NCBI GenBank assembly: GCA_019694165.1
Contig: JAIBCL010000005.1
Span: forward strand, 248,001 to 312,000
Direction: 5' to 3'
Length of the DNA stretch: 64,000 bases
Source: Verrucomicrobiaceae bacterium
Lineage (GTDB): Bacteria; Verrucomicrobiota; Verrucomicrobiia; Verrucomicrobiales; Verrucomicrobiaceae
Shown: positions 37,915-49,744 of the stretch, one piece after another
Position numbering within the stretch: position 1 is the first letter of the stretch
Layout: every line of letters begins with the position of its first letter
Notes under the pieces: model-generated
Seen by the model: the letters and a program-made list of their open reading frames with translations, nothing else
What the model was told of the DNA's origin: nothing
The model's database searches: none
Made by a program: the position numbers and the translations under genes

Positions 37915-39537
37915 CTACTGGATCCGTTTCAGCGTCCCGATCCGGTAGGCACCGCCGACGAGCTTGAGGTTGTCACGCTCGGCGCTGACGGCATCGATGT
38001 GGAGGAGTTTCGGGAAGTCGGCCAGCTCGATGATGTGCACGCCGTCCTTCGGAGTCTTGAATGCCTCGGCAAGGTCGTTGAGGTCGTTGACCTTTACGCC
38101 GTTCACCAGATTCACCACCTGCCCGCCGAGCCGCTCGTAGCCCTGTACGGTGGGTGTGGGCAGCACCGCGCTGAGGAAGACAAGCTTCCGGCGGCCTTCC
38201 TTCTCGTAGTCCTCGGGATGCTCGGCGATGCGGGAGAGGCGGAGGATGGCACCGCTCTGTTGATCGCTGCCAAAGGCCTGGAGGTAGGGCTTGGAGAGTT
38301 CCTGGAAGAGCAGGCCGCCCATCATCACGTAGTTCGGGCCGCGGTCAAAAATGTAGGGCGTGACGAGGTAGTCGGCGGGCTGCTTGCGCAGCAGCTTGCC
38401 GGAGAGTTCGATCTCCTTGCCGTCGCGGAGCACTTTCATCTCGATCTTGTCACCCACGAAGGCGCGGCCCCGGACGACGTGGCTGATGCTCAGCGCGCCG
38501 AACTGCGGGTCCTGGTAGTCACCGCGGGAATCAACGGAGAAGCCGTTGATCGAGAGAATGATGTCACCCTGTTTCACGCCGATCTTGTCGGCCGAGGCAC
38601 CCTTTGACACGCCGCTGATGAAGGCACCCTTCATGCCGCCCTTCATGCCAAGGTACTCGCGGAACTGCTCGTCGAGCGTCTGCTGCAGCTCGACACCGAG
38701 GCTGGGAAAGCCGTCGTACTGCCCGTCGTCCGTGTCCTTAAGGAAGTGCTCGATGATGGGCGCGGGCAGCAACGTGGCCACCTGGTTCTTCGAATCGTAG
38801 CGCAGCAGGAGCGCGGCGAGTTTTCCACCTTTGACGACCGGAAGCGTGAAGCTGTTCCCCTCGCTGCGGACAATGCCAGTAGCCTCATAGACGAGGAAAC
38901 TGGCGTTCTCGACGACGTAGCCCTGCGTCATCACCTTGCTGATGCGCATGGGGGTGACGATGAGGTCGCCCACGCGGCCGGTCTGCCAGATGGAGAGCGA
39001 ATCGCCGATGCGCGCGGAGGTGTCCAGCGTCATCGGCGTCAGACTCGCGAAGAATTCCTTCTCCTTCGACGGCGAGGCCGAGGCCAGCAGGGCGACGTTT
39101 GCCTCGTAATCGACGGCCACCACCTTCGCCGGCAGCTTCTGGCCGCTCTCGGGCATCTCAAGTTCTATGTAGGTGGCATCCGCCACCATCTGGCCGGTGA
39201 CGAGGATGCGGTTGCCGGCGAGCACCACGCCGAGGCCGCGGCGCGCGCCGGGAGATTCCTTCTGCCAGGGGATGTGCGGATTGTAGCCCTGCGAGGTGGC
39301 GTTGACTTTGACGAGCGAAGTCGAGCGGATGATGGTCTCGCGTTGCGAAGGTGCCGCGGGTGCGACCGGGAGGTTGCGTTTGGGAAGAACTCCAGCGGGA
39401 GGCGGCGTGATGGTGCCGATGGGTTTCTTCCGCTCGGCTTTGCCCCTCGGCTCGAGCACGGAGGCTGAGTTCTGCGCGACGACGGCGCTGGTGGCGGAGA
39501 GGAGTGCGAGGAACAGCGGGAAAACGACGCGTTTCAT
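37915..39537 (-). CDS. Inactive trypsin-like/PDZ paralogue (pseudoprotease)
   Basis: A 540-residue protein from 39537 (signal MKRVVFPLFLALLSATSAVVA). It aligns along its length with the active protease encoded just upstream. The catalytic positions are lost: His becomes Gln116 (ILVTGQMVADAT against FLTNAHVVSNAT), Asp becomes Asn147 (YEANVALLAS), and the GNSGGP loop reads GNSFTLP, keeping Ser229 but not the oxyanion glycines. PDZ domains are retained (FPSLGVELQQ region; GASADKIGVKQGDIILSING). It starts 38 bp after the protease stop, so the two are one operon; it may be a binding partner, adaptor or regulator of the protease. Confidence 0.85.
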   Translation of the reverse strand: MKRVVFPLFLALLSATSAVVAQNSASVLEPRGKAERKKPIGTITPPPAGVLPKRNLPVAPAAPSQRETIIRSTSLVKVNATSQGYNPHIPWQKESPGARRGLGVVLAGNRILVTGQMVADATYIELEMPESGQKLPAKVVAVDYEANVALLASASPSKEKEFFASLTPMTLDTSARIGDSLSIWQTGRVGDLIVTPMRISKVMTQGYVVENASFLVYEATGIVRSEGNSFTLPVVKGGKLAALLLRYDSKNQVATLLPAPIIEHFLKDTDDGQYDGFPSLGVELQQTLDEQFREYLGMKGGMKGAFISGVSKGASADKIGVKQGDIILSINGFSVDSRGDYQDPQFGALSISHVVRGRAFVGDKIEMKVLRDGKEIELSGKLLRKQPADYLVTPYIFDRGPNYVMMGGLLFQELSKPYLQAFGSDQQSGAILRLSRIAEHPEDYEKEGRRKLVFLSAVLPTPTVQGYERLGGQVVNLVNGVKVNDLNDLAEAFKTPKDGVHIIELADFPKLLHIDAVSAERDNLKLVGGAYRIGTLKRIQ

Positions 39538-39574
39538 GGCGCGATGAGGCGTGGTGGTTTGTGGTCGCGACATG

Positions 39575-41086
39575 TCATTCCTCACCGAGGTAGGAGGCTT
39601 CGCGGATGTTGTAGGTCTTCATGATGCGCGGATGCGCAGCCTCGGCGAGCTCGCGCTTGAGCACCAGAGGGCGGCCCTTTTCGAGCAGTTTGATTTTGAT
39701 GAAACCGGCCCTCTCGTCCTCCTTCGCCAGCGCGGCCTTCACGTCCTTGAGGGTCTTGATCTTCACCCCGTTGATCTCATCGACGATGCTCTGCTGGTAG
39801 CCGGTGAGATAAGTGTTCACCTCGTCGGGCAGGACGTTCGTGAGCACGATGACCTCGGGCCGCTCTTCATAGATCTTTTTCGTCATGTAATTGTCGAAGA
39901 CGTAGCTGGTGAGCGGATCACGGATGCTGTGCGCGTCCATCAGGTTCCGGTCCATGGGCTGGAAGACCAGGCCGGCATAGACGATGTAGCGCGGGCGCTG
40001 GTTGTATTGCAGGCCGAGCTTCACGTAGGGCAGGAAGCGCTTCAGCGTGACGGTGGCGGACTGCTTCTTGCGGTCGCGCACGAAGTCGAGCTTCACCTTG
40101 CCGCCGGCGTATTTGCGCTCCACCACCTCGTTCATGTCGATGAGTTCGCCGTCGATCTTGATGAGGCCGTTGTTGAGCACGGGATTGCCGTCGATAGCTA
40201 GCAGCACGTCCCCTTGCTTGAGCACCCCGCCTACACACCCGGCCGGCTCCACGTCGGCAATGAGCACTCCGTGACCGTCGTTTTCGAGGCCCAGCGCCTT
40301 GATTTGCGCGGGGTTTTCGATCGAAAAATCACCCGCCGCGAGATCCACGTAATGGTCATAGTGGCCGTCCTCGATGTCCTTCAGGAAGCGCTCGATCACG
40401 GGTACCGGGATCATGTAGCCCACGTTCTGCGCCACGCGGCCGCTGAATCCCTGGAAGGCCACGCCCACGACCTTGCGGTTTTGCAGCACGGGGCCGCCGG
40501 AGTTCCCCGGATTGATCGCCGCATCCACCTGGATGGTGAGGTGATTGTCCACTCCCGTATGGCTGTAGGGTCGGAAGTCGATGCGCGAGACCACGCCGCG
40601 TGTGACGGACACTCGCTCGCCGCCGATCGGGTAGCCCACGGCGATCACCTCGGTGTTCAGCTTCGGGATGCCGCCGAAAGTCAGCGGCTTGAGTTTTTCA
40701 AAGTGCGAGGCGTCCTCCGCCTCGATGAGCGCGAGGTCACAGTCGTGTGCGATGTGCACCACCCGCGCGGCATGCGGCTCGGGGTCGCTCATCGTGCGGA
40801 TCACGATCTTTGTCGCGTTGCTCACGACGTGCGCGTTGGTCAGGAATCTGTTTTTGCCAATGAGGAATCCCGTGCCCGATCCGCCCGACGGCTGCCCGGC
40901 ATTCCACGGCTCGCGATAGTCGGGCATGAGCACCGACACGTCGATGTTGACGATACCCTCCCATTCGCCCGAGTTGGTGTCGATGGCCTGGCTTGCACCG
41001 GGATCCTCGTCCTTCGCCCGGGCCGGTATTGAAGTGCATAACAGCAGCGCGGCAGCGGACGCAAGGAGCAAGGGGTGTTTCGTCAT
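39575..41086 (-). CDS. Trypsin-like serine protease with PDZ domains (HtrA/Deg-like)
   Basis: A 503-residue protein with a signal peptide (MTKHPLLLASAAALLLCTSIPARA). Full triad: His86 in LTNAHVVSN, Asp117 in DCDLALIE and Ser196 in NPGNSGGP. Two PDZ-like regions follow (GVLIADVEPAGCVGGVLKQGDVLLAIDG near 270, and LTNVLPDEVNTYLTGYQ near 420). The arrangement is like plant Deg and bacterial DegP-type envelope proteases. The next gene downstream is a catalytically dead paralogue. Confidence 0.9.
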   Translation of the reverse strand: MTKHPLLLASAAALLLCTSIPARAKDEDPGASQAIDTNSGEWEGIVNIDVSVLMPDYREPWNAGQPSGGSGTGFLIGKNRFLTNAHVVSNATKIVIRTMSDPEPHAARVVHIAHDCDLALIEAEDASHFEKLKPLTFGGIPKLNTEVIAVGYPIGGERVSVTRGVVSRIDFRPYSHTGVDNHLTIQVDAAINPGNSGGPVLQNRKVVGVAFQGFSGRVAQNVGYMIPVPVIERFLKDIEDGHYDHYVDLAAGDFSIENPAQIKALGLENDGHGVLIADVEPAGCVGGVLKQGDVLLAIDGNPVLNNGLIKIDGELIDMNEVVERKYAGGKVKLDFVRDRKKQSATVTLKRFLPYVKLGLQYNQRPRYIVYAGLVFQPMDRNLMDAHSIRDPLTSYVFDNYMTKKIYEERPEVIVLTNVLPDEVNTYLTGYQQSIVDEINGVKIKTLKDVKAALAKEDERAGFIKIKLLEKGRPLVLKRELAEAAHPRIMKTYNIREASYLGEE

Positions 41087-45488: not shown

Positions 45489-47588
45489 ATGTCGCTAGAC
45501 CAAGCCATCGCCAGCACCCGCGCCCATCTTCTCTCGCTCCGCAATGAGCGCGGGCATTGGGTGGGCGAACTGTCGAGCAGTGCGCTCTCAACGGCGACGG
45601 CGGTAGTTGCGCTGAGCCTGGTAGATGCTGAGGGACATGCAACGCTCATCAAGGATGGCGCGCGGTGGCTTGCGGCGCATCAGAACGCGGACGGCGGCTG
45701 GGGTGACACGACGATCAGCAAATCGAATCTCTCGACCACGCTGCTGTGCTGGTCGGCGCTCACGCTCGTGGACAAGCAACGCGCATTCCGTTGCCCGGAC
45801 GACATCGCGAGCAGCGGCCCCGCGCCTCAATCGCTCGCACCCGTCTTTGCCCGCTGCGAGAGCTGGCTGCGCGAGCGAGCCGGCTCGCTGGAGCCGGATG
45901 CGATCTGTCGCGCGGTCATTGCGCGCTACGGAAAGGACAAGACCTTCTCGGTGCCCATTCTCATGACCTGCGCGCTCGGTGGTCGTCTCGGCGAGCATGA
46001 CAAGGCGTGGCGTCGTGTGCTGTCGTTGCCATTTGAGCTGGCCGCGCTGCCTCGCACATGGTTTGGCGCGATTGGCCTGCCTGTCGTCAGCTACGCACTG
46101 CCGGCGCTGATCGCGATTGGCTACGCTCGTTTTCACCATGCGCCTCCGTCGTTTCTGAACCCGCTCCGCTGGCTGCGCGCGCTCTTTTGGTACCGTGTGT
46201 CGCCGATGCTGAAGACTCTGCAGCCATCGACCGGCGGCTATCTCGAAGCGACGCCTCTCACGAGTTTCGTCACGATGGCGCTCGCGGGCAGTGGCGAGAA
46301 GCATCATCCGTGCGTGCCCGATGCCGTGCGCTTTTTGCGAGAATCGCAACGCGAAGACGGGAGCTGGCCTATCGACACGAATCTCGCGACCTGGGGCACG
46401 ACGCTCGCAGTGAAGGCTCTTGCAGGCTACGATGATGCTCTTTGGAGTCCAGGCTTCAGCCGGTCAGAAGAAGCTGCGAATGACCGGCTGAAGCCTGGAC
46501 TCCAACCATTCACCGCCGTCCGCGAGTGGCTTCTCGATCAGCAATACAAAGCCGTCCACCCTTTCACGAATGCCGCGCCCGGCGGCTGGGCGTGGACGGA
46601 TCTCCCCGGCGGTGTGCCCGATGCCGATGACACCAGCGGTGCGCTCATCGCGCTGTGGCATCTCATGCATCGTGAACGCAAGGTAGGGCGGACTGTCCTC
46701 AGTCCGCCGACGGACGCCAATTGGCATTCGGATGCAGGCGATGCGAACGAGGATCGAGAACGATCGGCGGCGCTTGCAGGAGCAAGCGCCCTACCCATCG
46801 CCCGTATCGAAGCAGGTATTGCATGGCTGCTCGATCTTCAAAACCGCGACGGCGGTGTGCCCACGTTTTGCCGCGGTTGGGGTACGCTGCCGTTTGATCG
46901 CAGCACGCCGGAGATCACGGCTCATGCGATCTGGGCCGTCAGCCTTTGGGTTGAAGAAGTGGATCCAGAACTGAAGGCCCGCGCGCGCGAGTTCATCCGC
47001 TCGGCCTTAAGCTATCTGGACTCCCGACCGACGACCGACTGGAAAGGCCGGCTTTCAAGCCATTGGATTCCGCTCTGGTTTGGAAACGAACACGCCGCTG
47101 ACGAAGAGAATCGTGTATTCGGCACCGCGAAGGTCATAAGAGCGCTCGTGCATTCAGGACTTGCGCGACGGGATCACTGGGAACGATACCTGACCGAACG
47201 CGAAGACCCGGACGCCTTCCTCGCGACGCGCATGGTCAAGGAAGGCGCGAAGTACTTGCTCCGGCAGCAACTGCCATCCGGCGCTTGGGGTGGTGATGCG
47301 TCCACGCCGCCGACCATCGAAGAGACCGCGCTCGCTTGCTCCGCGCTGGCTGTCACGCATGGCATCGTGCTCAGCGAAGCACGCTGCGATGAGGAACGCG
47401 CGTGCATCAGAAAGGCCGTCGAGCGCGGTTGCGCATGGCTGATTGAAGAGACACGAAATGGCACACATTTCCCGCCGGCACCGATCGGCCTTTATTTTGC
47501 GCGGCTTTGGTATCACGAGCGGCTGTATCCCGTCGTATGGACGTTGGAGGCGCTGACGGCGGCGCGGGCAGCCATTGAGCGGCCATGA
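45489..47588 (+). CDS. shc: Squalene-hopene cyclase-like terpene cyclase with two palindromic insertions
   Basis: A 699-residue protein. The catalytic acid motif D-x-D-D is PDADDTSG with Asp378, Asp380 and Asp381; QW repeats include NADGGWGD, REDGSWPI, NRDGGVPTF and PSGAWGGD; the N-terminus (NERGHWVGELSSSALSTATAV) fits bacterial cyclases. The family turns squalene into hopene on the membrane. Two inserts interrupt helix-linking loops: residues about 319-339 and 399-436, each encoded by an in-frame palindromic element. No hpn genes lie nearby. Product identity (hopanoid or other triterpene) is not proven. Confidence 0.88.
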   Translation: MSLDQAIASTRAHLLSLRNERGHWVGELSSSALSTATAVVALSLVDAEGHATLIKDGARWLAAHQNADGGWGDTTISKSNLSTTLLCWSALTLVDKQRAFRCPDDIASSGPAPQSLAPVFARCESWLRERAGSLEPDAICRAVIARYGKDKTFSVPILMTCALGGRLGEHDKAWRRVLSLPFELAALPRTWFGAIGLPVVSYALPALIAIGYARFHHAPPSFLNPLRWLRALFWYRVSPMLKTLQPSTGGYLEATPLTSFVTMALAGSGEKHHPCVPDAVRFLRESQREDGSWPIDTNLATWGTTLAVKALAGYDDALWSPGFSRSEEAANDRLKPGLQPFTAVREWLLDQQYKAVHPFTNAAPGGWAWTDLPGGVPDADDTSGALIALWHLMHRERKVGRTVLSPPTDANWHSDAGDANEDRERSAALAGASALPIARIEAGIAWLLDLQNRDGGVPTFCRGWGTLPFDRSTPEITAHAIWAVSLWVEEVDPELKARAREFIRSALSYLDSRPTTDWKGRLSSHWIPLWFGNEHAADEENRVFGTAKVIRALVHSGLARRDHWERYLTEREDPDAFLATRMVKEGAKYLLRQQLPSGAWGGDASTPPTIEETALACSALAVTHGIVLSEARCDEERACIRKAVERGCAWLIEETRNGTHFPPAPIGLYFARLWYHERLYPVVWTLEALTAARAAIERP
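46442..46505. repeat. Perfect palindromic element inside the triterpene cyclase gene
   Basis: A perfect 25-bp inverted repeat (46442-46466 with 46481-46505) and a 14-nt loop; arms begin TTGGAGTCCAGG and contain the small hairpin GGCTTCAGCC. On both strands GGAG is near the outer end, the variant foot known for REP sequences. It codes for WSPGFSRSEEAANDRLKPG. Confidence 0.85.
46682..46795. repeat. REPIN-like double hairpin inside the triterpene cyclase gene
   Basis: Left: GGTAG (46682-46686) then GGCGGACTG-TCCT-CAGTCCGCC (46687-46708). Right: GGCGCTTGC-AGGA-GCAAGCGCC (46769-46790) then CTACC (46791-46795). Read from either end, each unit is GTAG + GGCG-stem with a TCCT loop, i.e. two inverted REPs. 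It codes for residues of about 399-436, just after the DxDD helix. Confidence 0.88.
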
Positions 47589-47767: not shown

Positions 47768-48763
47768 ATGTCTGGCACCCGGAGGCCATCGCTCACGGTT
47801 TCGGTTTGCGTCGCGGTCCTGGCCGCGGCGTGGGTGACTGTTGCCGGGCGCGCCTCGGCCTTGGAGTCGTCGAAGGAAACGATCGGCGAGCTTTTGAAAA
47901 TCCAGGCGCAGGTGCAGTCGAGGCTCGATCTCGTCTCGCGCGCGGTCGTCGCAGTCGAGTCCGATGATGGCGCGGCCAGCGGTGTGATCGTATCGCCCGA
48001 CGGACTCGTGATGACGGCGGCGCATGTGACGACGAATCCCGGGCGGAAGATTCTCCTGCATCTCGCTGATGGAACGAAGACCGGCTGCAAATCGCTCGGT
48101 CTCGACAAGTCCACCGACGCCGCGATGATGCGCATCGACGGCGACCGGAAGGACTGGCCCTACGTGCCGCTCTGCCGCGACCTGCGCATGGCGAAGCCCG
48201 GCACATGGTGCTTCGCGCTCGGACATCCCGGCGGCTATGATGCAAAACGCGGCCCCGTATTGCGCGTGGGCAGGGTGCTCAAGCAGATGGCCAATGGACT
48301 CCAGACCGACTGCGTGCTCATGGGCGGCGACTCGGGCGGGCCGCTCTTCAACCTCGACGGCGAAGTCATCGGCATCCACAGCCAGATCTGGGAGGAGCGC
48401 GATCAAAATGTGCATGTGTCCGTCGCGCCCTTCCTGCGCGCGTGGGACACACTTAAGCAGTCCCATGTCGTGCGCGTGTGGAATACCGGCGTCGGCGGCT
48501 GGCTCGGCGTCATGACGCGTATCTCGAGCGCCGCCGAACTCGAGATTGCCGAGGTCGCCAAGGATTCGCCCGCGGCCAAAGCGGGACTGCAATCTGGCGA
48601 CGTGATCGTCACGCTCGACGGCGAGCGGATGCTGGATCAGCCGCAATTCTCCAGCGCCATCAACAGCCGCGCGGCGGGTCAGCGCATCTCGCTCCGGCTC
48701 CGCGGCAAATCCGGACCGCGTGTGGTGGAGGTGAGCCTCGGAACCAAGCCTGTGGAGGATTGA
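47768..48763 (+). CDS. Trypsin-like serine protease with PDZ domain (S1C)
   Basis: A 331-residue protein from 47768 (MSGTRRPSLTVSVCVAVLAAAWVTV, signal or anchor). Triad: His86 in MTAAHVTTN, Asp117 in STDAAMMRID, Ser189 in GGDSGGPLF; GHPGG near 152-156 helps the substrate loop. One PDZ domain occupies about 233-325 (DSPAAKAGLQSGDVIVTLDG). It is an HtrA/DegQ-like envelope protease by family. The next gene begins 3 bp after its stop and is a dead paralogue. Confidence 0.9.
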   Translation: MSGTRRPSLTVSVCVAVLAAAWVTVAGRASALESSKETIGELLKIQAQVQSRLDLVSRAVVAVESDDGAASGVIVSPDGLVMTAAHVTTNPGRKILLHLADGTKTGCKSLGLDKSTDAAMMRIDGDRKDWPYVPLCRDLRMAKPGTWCFALGHPGGYDAKRGPVLRVGRVLKQMANGLQTDCVLMGGDSGGPLFNLDGEVIGIHSQIWEERDQNVHVSVAPFLRAWDTLKQSHVVRVWNTGVGGWLGVMTRISSAAELEIAEVAKDSPAAKAGLQSGDVIVTLDGERMLDQPQFSSAINSRAAGQRISLRLRGKSGPRVVEVSLGTKPVED

Positions 48764-48766
48764 ATC

Positions 48767-49744
48767 GTGAAGCGCGCGCTTGTCTTTTGCCTCCTTCATG
48801 GCCCGCTGTTGCGCGCCGGGGCGCCGGCCACCGCGCCGCCTGATGCGCGGCAGACCGTCGCCGCGTCCGTGATCCGCATTGAGAAACCCGCCGGCAAGCT
48901 GGCCGCCACCGGCGTGATCGTCACCCCCGACGGCTACTTCCTCACGAAGGCCAGCGAGGTGCCGAAGCTGGCCGGCAGCTCATTCTTCCTGCCCGACGGC
49001 AAACCGGCGCGGGTCCGCGAAGTGCGGCGCGACTCCCGCACGGACGTGCTCCTGCTCCAGTGCAGCGGCGTCAACGGGCTGGCCGCCGTGAAGTGGAGCG
49101 AGTCGAAATCGCTCGCGCCCGGCCAGTGGCTGCTCGCCCCCAGGCAGGGTGGCAGGGAGGACGCCCGCCTCGGCGTGATGAGCGCTCGCCGCCGCGAGAT
49201 CAAAGGTGGCAGTGCAGCCATCGGCATCCGCATGGCCGACCAGGACTCGCCCGAAGGTGTAAGGATCATCGGCGTCGCCGAGGACAGCCCTGCCGCAGCC
49301 GCGGGATTGAAGGAAAACGACCGCCTCATCTCCATCGCCGGTGAAGCCGTGAAGAAATACACTGTCGCGCACGAACTCATCAGCAGTCGCGAGCCCGGAG
49401 ACGAAATCGAGATCGAATACAAGCGCGGCGGCAAGCTCACCAAGTGCAGCGTGCGTCTGGCCAGCCGGAATCGCGTGCTCTCGAACTGGACCGGCGAGGA
49501 CTACGCCAATGGCGGCATCTCCATCCGCACCGACAATTTCCCCGAAATCATCCAGCACGACATCCCTCTCGGGCCTGCTGACATGGGCGGCCCCGTTTTC
49601 AATCTTCTCGGCCAGGCCGTCGCGCTGAACATCGCCCGCGTGGATCGCGTGACCACGTTCGCCCTGCCGATGGAGGTTTTCTGGCCCGGCGTGCAGCAGT
49701 GGATCGAGGACGACCGGCACCCGCCAAAGGCAGTGGTGAAATGA
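48767..49744 (+). CDS. Inactive S1C protease paralogue with PDZ domain nested inside the protease fold
   Basis: A 325-residue protein with GTG start (48767) and probable signal sequence. The N-terminal barrel matches the upstream protease (ATGVIVTPDGYFLT against ASGVIVSPDGLVMT), but His is replaced (Ser63 in LTKASEV), Asp93 is kept (SRTDVLLLQ), and the serine loop reads GPADMGGPVFNL with Met273 for Ser. Unusually, the PDZ domain (about 150-235, DSPAAAAGLKENDRLISIAG) lies between the strand LGVMSARRRE and the Ser-loop segment IIQHDIPLGPADMGGP, i.e. it interrupts the protease domain instead of following it. It is likely a non-catalytic partner of the protease encoded just before it. Confidence 0.82.
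   Translation: MKRALVFCLLHGPLLRAGAPATAPPDARQTVAASVIRIEKPAGKLAATGVIVTPDGYFLTKASEVPKLAGSSFFLPDGKPARVREVRRDSRTDVLLLQCSGVNGLAAVKWSESKSLAPGQWLLAPRQGGREDARLGVMSARRREIKGGSAAIGIRMADQDSPEGVRIIGVAEDSPAAAAGLKENDRLISIAGEAVKKYTVAHELISSREPGDEIEIEYKRGGKLTKCSVRLASRNRVLSNWTGEDYANGGISIRTDNFPEIIQHDIPLGPADMGGPVFNLLGQAVALNIARVDRVTTFALPMEVFWPGVQQWIEDDRHPPKAVVK

Follow-up and report, generated by a model that had tools for sequence, protein, structure and literature searches.

HtrA proteases are a textbook example of allosteric enzymes in quality control, and they have been studied as homo-oligomers whose every subunit is both sensor and scissors. In their activation, a client bound to PDZ1 acts via loop L3 on loop LD of the adjacent protease domain (PMC3575494, PMC3640471). 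Dead relatives have been described: in magnetotactic bacteria MamO is needed for proteolysis by MamE and promotes it without using its own triad, no physical complex of MamE and MamO was detected, and pseudoproteases arose repeatedly (PMC4794232). Pseudo-HtrA proteins are already known, and what is new here is the insertion of a PDZ domain, the strict pairing with an active protease, and the fusions.

The window is a stretch of 64,000 nucleotides from a Verrucomicrobiaceae bacterium, in which a gene for an active HtrA-type protease, A2, is followed by one for a degenerate relative, D2. As in the case of MamE and MamO, where an active HtrA works jointly with a dead relative, the degenerate protein stands beside an active one. 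However, in MamO the His and Asp remain and Thr replaces Ser, and activation of MamE depends on the TauE transporter domain at its C terminus (PMC4794232), whereas D2 has no such Pfam domain and carries a PDZ inside its protease fold. PflC, a flagellar-motor protein of Campylobacter jejuni, is like D2 in having a triad-less HtrA fold and, as supposed for D2, a non-catalytic role. It is a motor scaffold with the usual protease-PDZ-PDZ order, where D2 has one inserted PDZ, and, in contrast to D2, it is not described as standing next to an active HtrA or as being fused to one (PMC12222027). The chloroplast proteins Deg5 and Deg8 are a synergistic HtrA duo of which one has no PDZ, comparable to the PDZ-less active halves that accompany D, but both have complete triads and the single PDZ of Deg8 is not described as inserted (PMC3640471). 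DegP, DegQ and DegS (MEROPS S1C, NCBIfam TIGR02037) share their fold and domain content with A2 and D2, and the model proposed below builds on their PDZ1-L3-LD path; these are homo-oligomers with C-terminal PDZs and an intact triad, whereas A2 and D2 split the parts between two proteins.

An active protease followed by a dead one

The features of the A2 and D2 genes are as follows.

47768-48763, forward strand: A2, HtrA-type (S1C) protease, ATG start, 331 aa
48754-48759, forward strand: GGAGGA within the 3' end of A2, probably the ribosome-binding site for D2 (inferred from sequence)
48767-49744, forward strand: D2, conserved pseudoprotease, GTG start, 325 aa
48839-49204, forward strand: D2 protease half 1, residues 25-146, with TKASE at residues 60-64 (HHalign, family alignment)
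49205-49513, forward strand: inserted PDZ and flanks, residues 147-249, at the HtrA L3 loop (Pfam, alignments)
49514-49720, forward strand: D2 protease half 2, residues 250-318, with Met273 and the conserved NIAR..R motif (HHalign, family alignment)

The active-then-dead order and the 3 bp spacing of the original prediction are both borne out, the gap between the A2 stop and the D2 start being 3 nt (48764-48766), and GGAGGA stands 7 nt upstream of the D2 GTG. A2 has the features tested for the HtrA/Deg (S1C) family, with a trypsin-like domain (Pfam Trypsin_2, residues 70-203, 6.7e-24) containing an intact His86, Asp117 and Ser189 triad, and a C-terminal PDZ (PDZ_2, residues 247-323, 3.5e-10). 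Its N terminus is signal-peptide-like, so A2 would be secreted. The scores of both A2 (138 bits) and D2 (84 bits) fall short of the 416-bit cut-off for the curated DegP/HtrA subfamily TIGR02037. Among the A proteins that partner D, the H-D-S triad is present in 132 of 132 scored rows, some genomes being counted twice. The C-terminal PDZ is missing from some A orthologues, but A2 and 153 of the 159 separate A genes have one of their own; D is therefore not the sole source of a PDZ in most species. The L3 loop of A is short, with 12-13 residues between the flanking Gly and Asp in all 146 scored rows, against about 16-27 residues counted for L3 in other HtrAs of the same genome.

D2 has Ser63 in place of the catalytic His and Met273 in place of Ser, as had been predicted, and retains Asp93. 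It thus lacks the His-Asp-Ser triad of the S1C family while sharing homology with its protease domain, as seen by HHalign and in the best 50 Foldseek hits, all of which are HtrA-family chains. The AlphaFold2 model of D2 has a pLDDT of 91.7 and a pTM of 0.84. Across the D family, counted with some genomes represented twice, the catalytic His is missing from all 137 rows with a letter at that site, where 132 have Ser and 5 have Thr. The catalytic Ser is missing from all 141 (121 Met, 11 Cys, the others Ala, Ile, Val and Asn). A TKASE-type motif occupies the His site. In a 40-row family alignment the KASE motif, Gln263, and NIA with Arg291 and Arg294 are near-invariant. Some lineages, most of the planctomycete members among them, have Cys at the Ser site; conversion to a Cys protease was considered and rejected because the His is missing in every D.

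Relaxed selection, with dN/dS near 1, had been named in the original prediction as the mark of a pseudogene. Close orthologue pairs of D gave values of 0.02-0.25, similar to the 0.01-0.26 of A, which argues against a pseudogene. The D2 family is catalytically dead by sequence and is maintained under purifying selection. By every sequence test made, D2 is widespread and functional.

A PDZ domain inside the protease fold

The original prediction missed the main feature of D2, which is that a PDZ has been inserted inside its protease fold, and because of this D2 is more than a simple dead copy. The Pfam Trypsin_2 match is split in two, with PDZ_2 at residues 151-231 (4.4e-16) in between. Comparison with solved HtrAs is non-collinear: D2 residues 45-146 correspond to 96-198 of a DegP-like protein and residues 250-294 to 194-238 of the same protein, while residues 159-231 correspond to its PDZ at 289-361. 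The PDZ therefore lies between the protease halves rather than C-terminal to the protease, as is the rule for HtrAs. With residues 147-249 removed, the core of D aligns nearly end to end with the protease domain of A (HHalign 99.7%, E 2e-25), and the excised segment aligns to the C-terminal PDZ of A2 (HHalign E 1e-25). The half-PDZ-half order is repeated in the 40-row family alignment. The junction comes after the strand GVMSARRREI, which, by comparison and from DegP numbering, we take to be the start of DegP loop L3. Foldseek whole-chain TM values for D2 are low, about 0.3, as expected if a domain has moved; such scores are no direct test of the insertion, which was tested directly by HHalign. 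No account of the A-D pair, or of an HtrA with a PDZ in its protease domain, was found in the open-licence papers searched.

Partnership of A and D

Of 289 sampled Verrucomicrobiota genomes, 31 have both full-length D and A2-type A and neither was found in the other 258; the two lists, compared at the thresholds used, show no genome with one alone. For nearly every D gene the next gene upstream is an A gene, and the two often share a 4-nt ATGA overlap. In one genome, G011, both are present and unlinked. In an Akkermansia-like genus (g12), the 9 genomes without full-length D are also without A. This genus includes a sub-lineage with small genomes (2.2-2.7 Mb) that has neither full-length D nor A2-type A (G036, G118, G154, G186, G331, G101, G234, G241, G244), and at L058-L060 g12 genomes have a second, diverged A-D pair besides that at L037-L041.

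A and D form a single ORF in 21 genomes, many with 2-10 residues between the matched regions. The second signal peptide has been lost in the fusions read. The active half is without its own PDZ in 17 of the 21, and the inserted PDZ of the D half is retained in every fusion aligned. The separate A genes at the main g12 locus are also without a PDZ, and their D partners keep the inserted one. A and D are obligate partners, linked by gene order, co-occurrence and natural fusion. An AlphaFold2 model of a natural fusion reached a pTM of 0.56, at which the A-D interface cannot be read; it was built from an alignment of fusions only, a mixed alignment with the separate genes having slid D rows onto the A half.

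At three planctomycete loci (L207, L213 and L221), A and D are in the same frame with one stop codon between them, one step from fusion, and readthrough of this codon is conceivable. At L188, L189, L195 and L196 the linker that joins the active half to the dead one contains an EF-hand-like stretch (DIDRDGKITRTELPEG, DFDQDGRLTLTELPDG), suggestive of calcium binding by this linker. Tight fusions at L198, L201, L211, L212 and L214 have long charged low-complexity C-terminal tails, rich in Ala, Lys and Glu, or in Pro, Lys and Glu in L212.

Distribution and gene neighbourhood

Homologues of D2 are present in 55 of 57 relatives, the weakest being generic PDZ or trypsin matches, and full-length matches are found across the family and much of the order. 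The D family extends to Limisphaerales, marine Opitutia-labelled genomes and Planctomycetota. Across this last phylum the D profile was matched in 34 of 246 genomes, and in one planctomycete order an A-D fusion query was matched in 119 of 247. Planctomycete ORFs of approximately 960-1150 aa (G652:C58, G734:C71, G807:C12, G762:C18, G631:C23, G775:C67, G704:C8) align with the D profile over no more than the stretch that runs from the PDZ into protease half 2, and are possibly a further, more diverged multi-domain relative.

Nothing but the A-D pair is common to the gene neighbourhoods across lineages, so gene context gives no indication of the substrate. Mainly in the Verrucomicrobiaceae, an aminopeptidase-P-like gene is repeatedly found downstream of the pair and a dihydrolipoamide-dehydrogenase-like gene upstream of it. 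In the window, the gene at 45489-47588, upstream of A2 and outside the conserved unit, encodes a protein of 699 aa whose repeats (PF13243, PF13249) resemble those of squalene-hopene cyclases.

Proposed function of the pair

Because the couple, sometimes fused, has been kept together in two phyla, the dead half is probably not a broken gene but a component that contributes to the machine. There is about an even chance that D serves a two-part HtrA protease as its regulatory subunit, non-catalytic and equipped with a PDZ. A2 and D2 would both be obligate parts of a split HtrA protease that works outside the cytoplasm, A2 doing the cutting and D2 being a dedicated non-catalytic subunit with a trypsin-like fold. 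The presence of the PDZ in the L3 of the dead protein and the short L3 of its active partner suggest that sensing and cutting are divided between the two. The PDZ of D2 would sit in the loop that relays the PDZ-client signal to the activation loop LD of the neighbour. A and D would co-assemble, the PDZ of D would capture exposed C-terminal or hydrophobic client tails, and this capture would both switch on the neighbouring A and supply it with substrate. We infer physical assembly of A with D, activation over inhibition, and PDZ-to-LD signalling, with evidence that is compatible with activation as well as inhibition of A by D. The full proposal, that of a split and obligately heteromeric HtrA of Verrucomicrobiota and Planctomycetota in which the sensor PDZ in L3 of the dead subunit activates A in trans, or in cis in the fusions, is tentative and somewhat short of an even bet.

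Inhibition could take the form of a built-in latch, D taking up places in the HtrA oligomer as a safety catch produced along with the protease, and A staying off as long as the PDZ of D has no ligand. The adjacency, fusions and co-occurrence speak for this just as well, a downstream D with possible translational coupling suits dosage-matched control, and the conserved Glu64, Arg291 and Arg294 around the former active site could seal it. It is nonetheless unlikely, as tight fusions in which D has the only PDZ resemble a permanent part more than a removable inhibitor. Tight fusions, with their long charged repetitive tails after D, would suit a chaperone or scaffold subunit that binds clients or builds oligomers without regulating catalysis. 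PflC provides a precedent for a pseudo-HtrA scaffold (PMC12222027), but strict 1:1 co-occurrence with a single type of active protease, and a PDZ placed in the regulatory loop, point to a role linked to catalysis, making this a rather unlikely reading too.

It is quite improbable that D has put its old active site to a new use, such as metal or ligand binding as in MamO, with A as its maturation protease. The strong conservation of the replaced site (KASE, NIAR..R) and the MamO precedent (PMC4794232) are in its favour, but D has no evident metal-ligand motif and the Ser site varies among Met, Cys, Ala, Val, Ile and Asn; with six residues occurring there, it holds no fixed new ligand. The view of D as a copy of A that is decaying into a pseudogene can be given hardly any credence. 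Two catalytic residues have been lost, but ORFs are open in two phyla, the replacement motifs are invariant, D has its own clade (100/100), and the low dN/dS values together with this conservation led to rejection of pseudogene status.

If the regulatory-subunit model is true, the path from PDZ to active site becomes testable by mixing subunits instead of by mutation of a single protein, and the natural fusions, which fix a 1:1 ratio, would be useful for structural work. The pair is also a broad example of how a dead enzyme is retained beside its living sister, in bacteria from gut, soil and aquatic habitats.

A second pair and the origin of the dead members

The first pair in the window is on the opposite strand, 6.7 kb from A2 and D2.

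39575-41086, reverse strand: A1, active member, with Trypsin_2, PDZ_2 and PDZ_3 (Pfam)
37915-39585, reverse strand: D1, dead member, canonical domain order, apparently of independent origin (Pfam, tree)

The same pairing had been expected about 7 kb away with the same 3 bp spacing. The second occurrence is there but the spacing is not, since D1 overlaps A1 by 11 nt from its GTG start, or is 1 nt apart from it if an alternative in-frame ATG at 39573 is used. D1 is found in 38 of 38 genomes of the order searched and adjoins A1 where the locus was read. Genome-wide there are 12 Trypsin_2 matches, and inspection of the other copies, as far as these could be resolved, showed no third pairing of an active with a dead member.

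A phylogeny of the S1C proteins had been suggested as the means of learning whether dead members form one clade or arise repeatedly. In a tree of 84 protease domains the D2-type, A2-type and D1-type sequences form separate clades, each 100/100, and D1 groups with A1 (100/99). A single origin for both dead members was rejected when these were constrained to one clade (AU p = 0.017), a rejection of moderate strength because the branches are long. The separate clades and the rejected constraint are moderate evidence that dead partners originated at least twice, both having been retained. Conservation of both pairs across the order puts them beyond chance, and with the dead members in two clades this supports the view that active/dead pairing is a recurring strategy rather than an accident. 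Both pairs are old inheritances, without recent duplication in the lineage.

D1 died by a different route from D2. Its catalytic His has become Gln, Glu or Ser and its Asp has become Asn or Glu, while Ser or Thr is kept at the third position and the subsequent Gly-Gly is lost. The triad context of A1 is intact in the orthologues covered.
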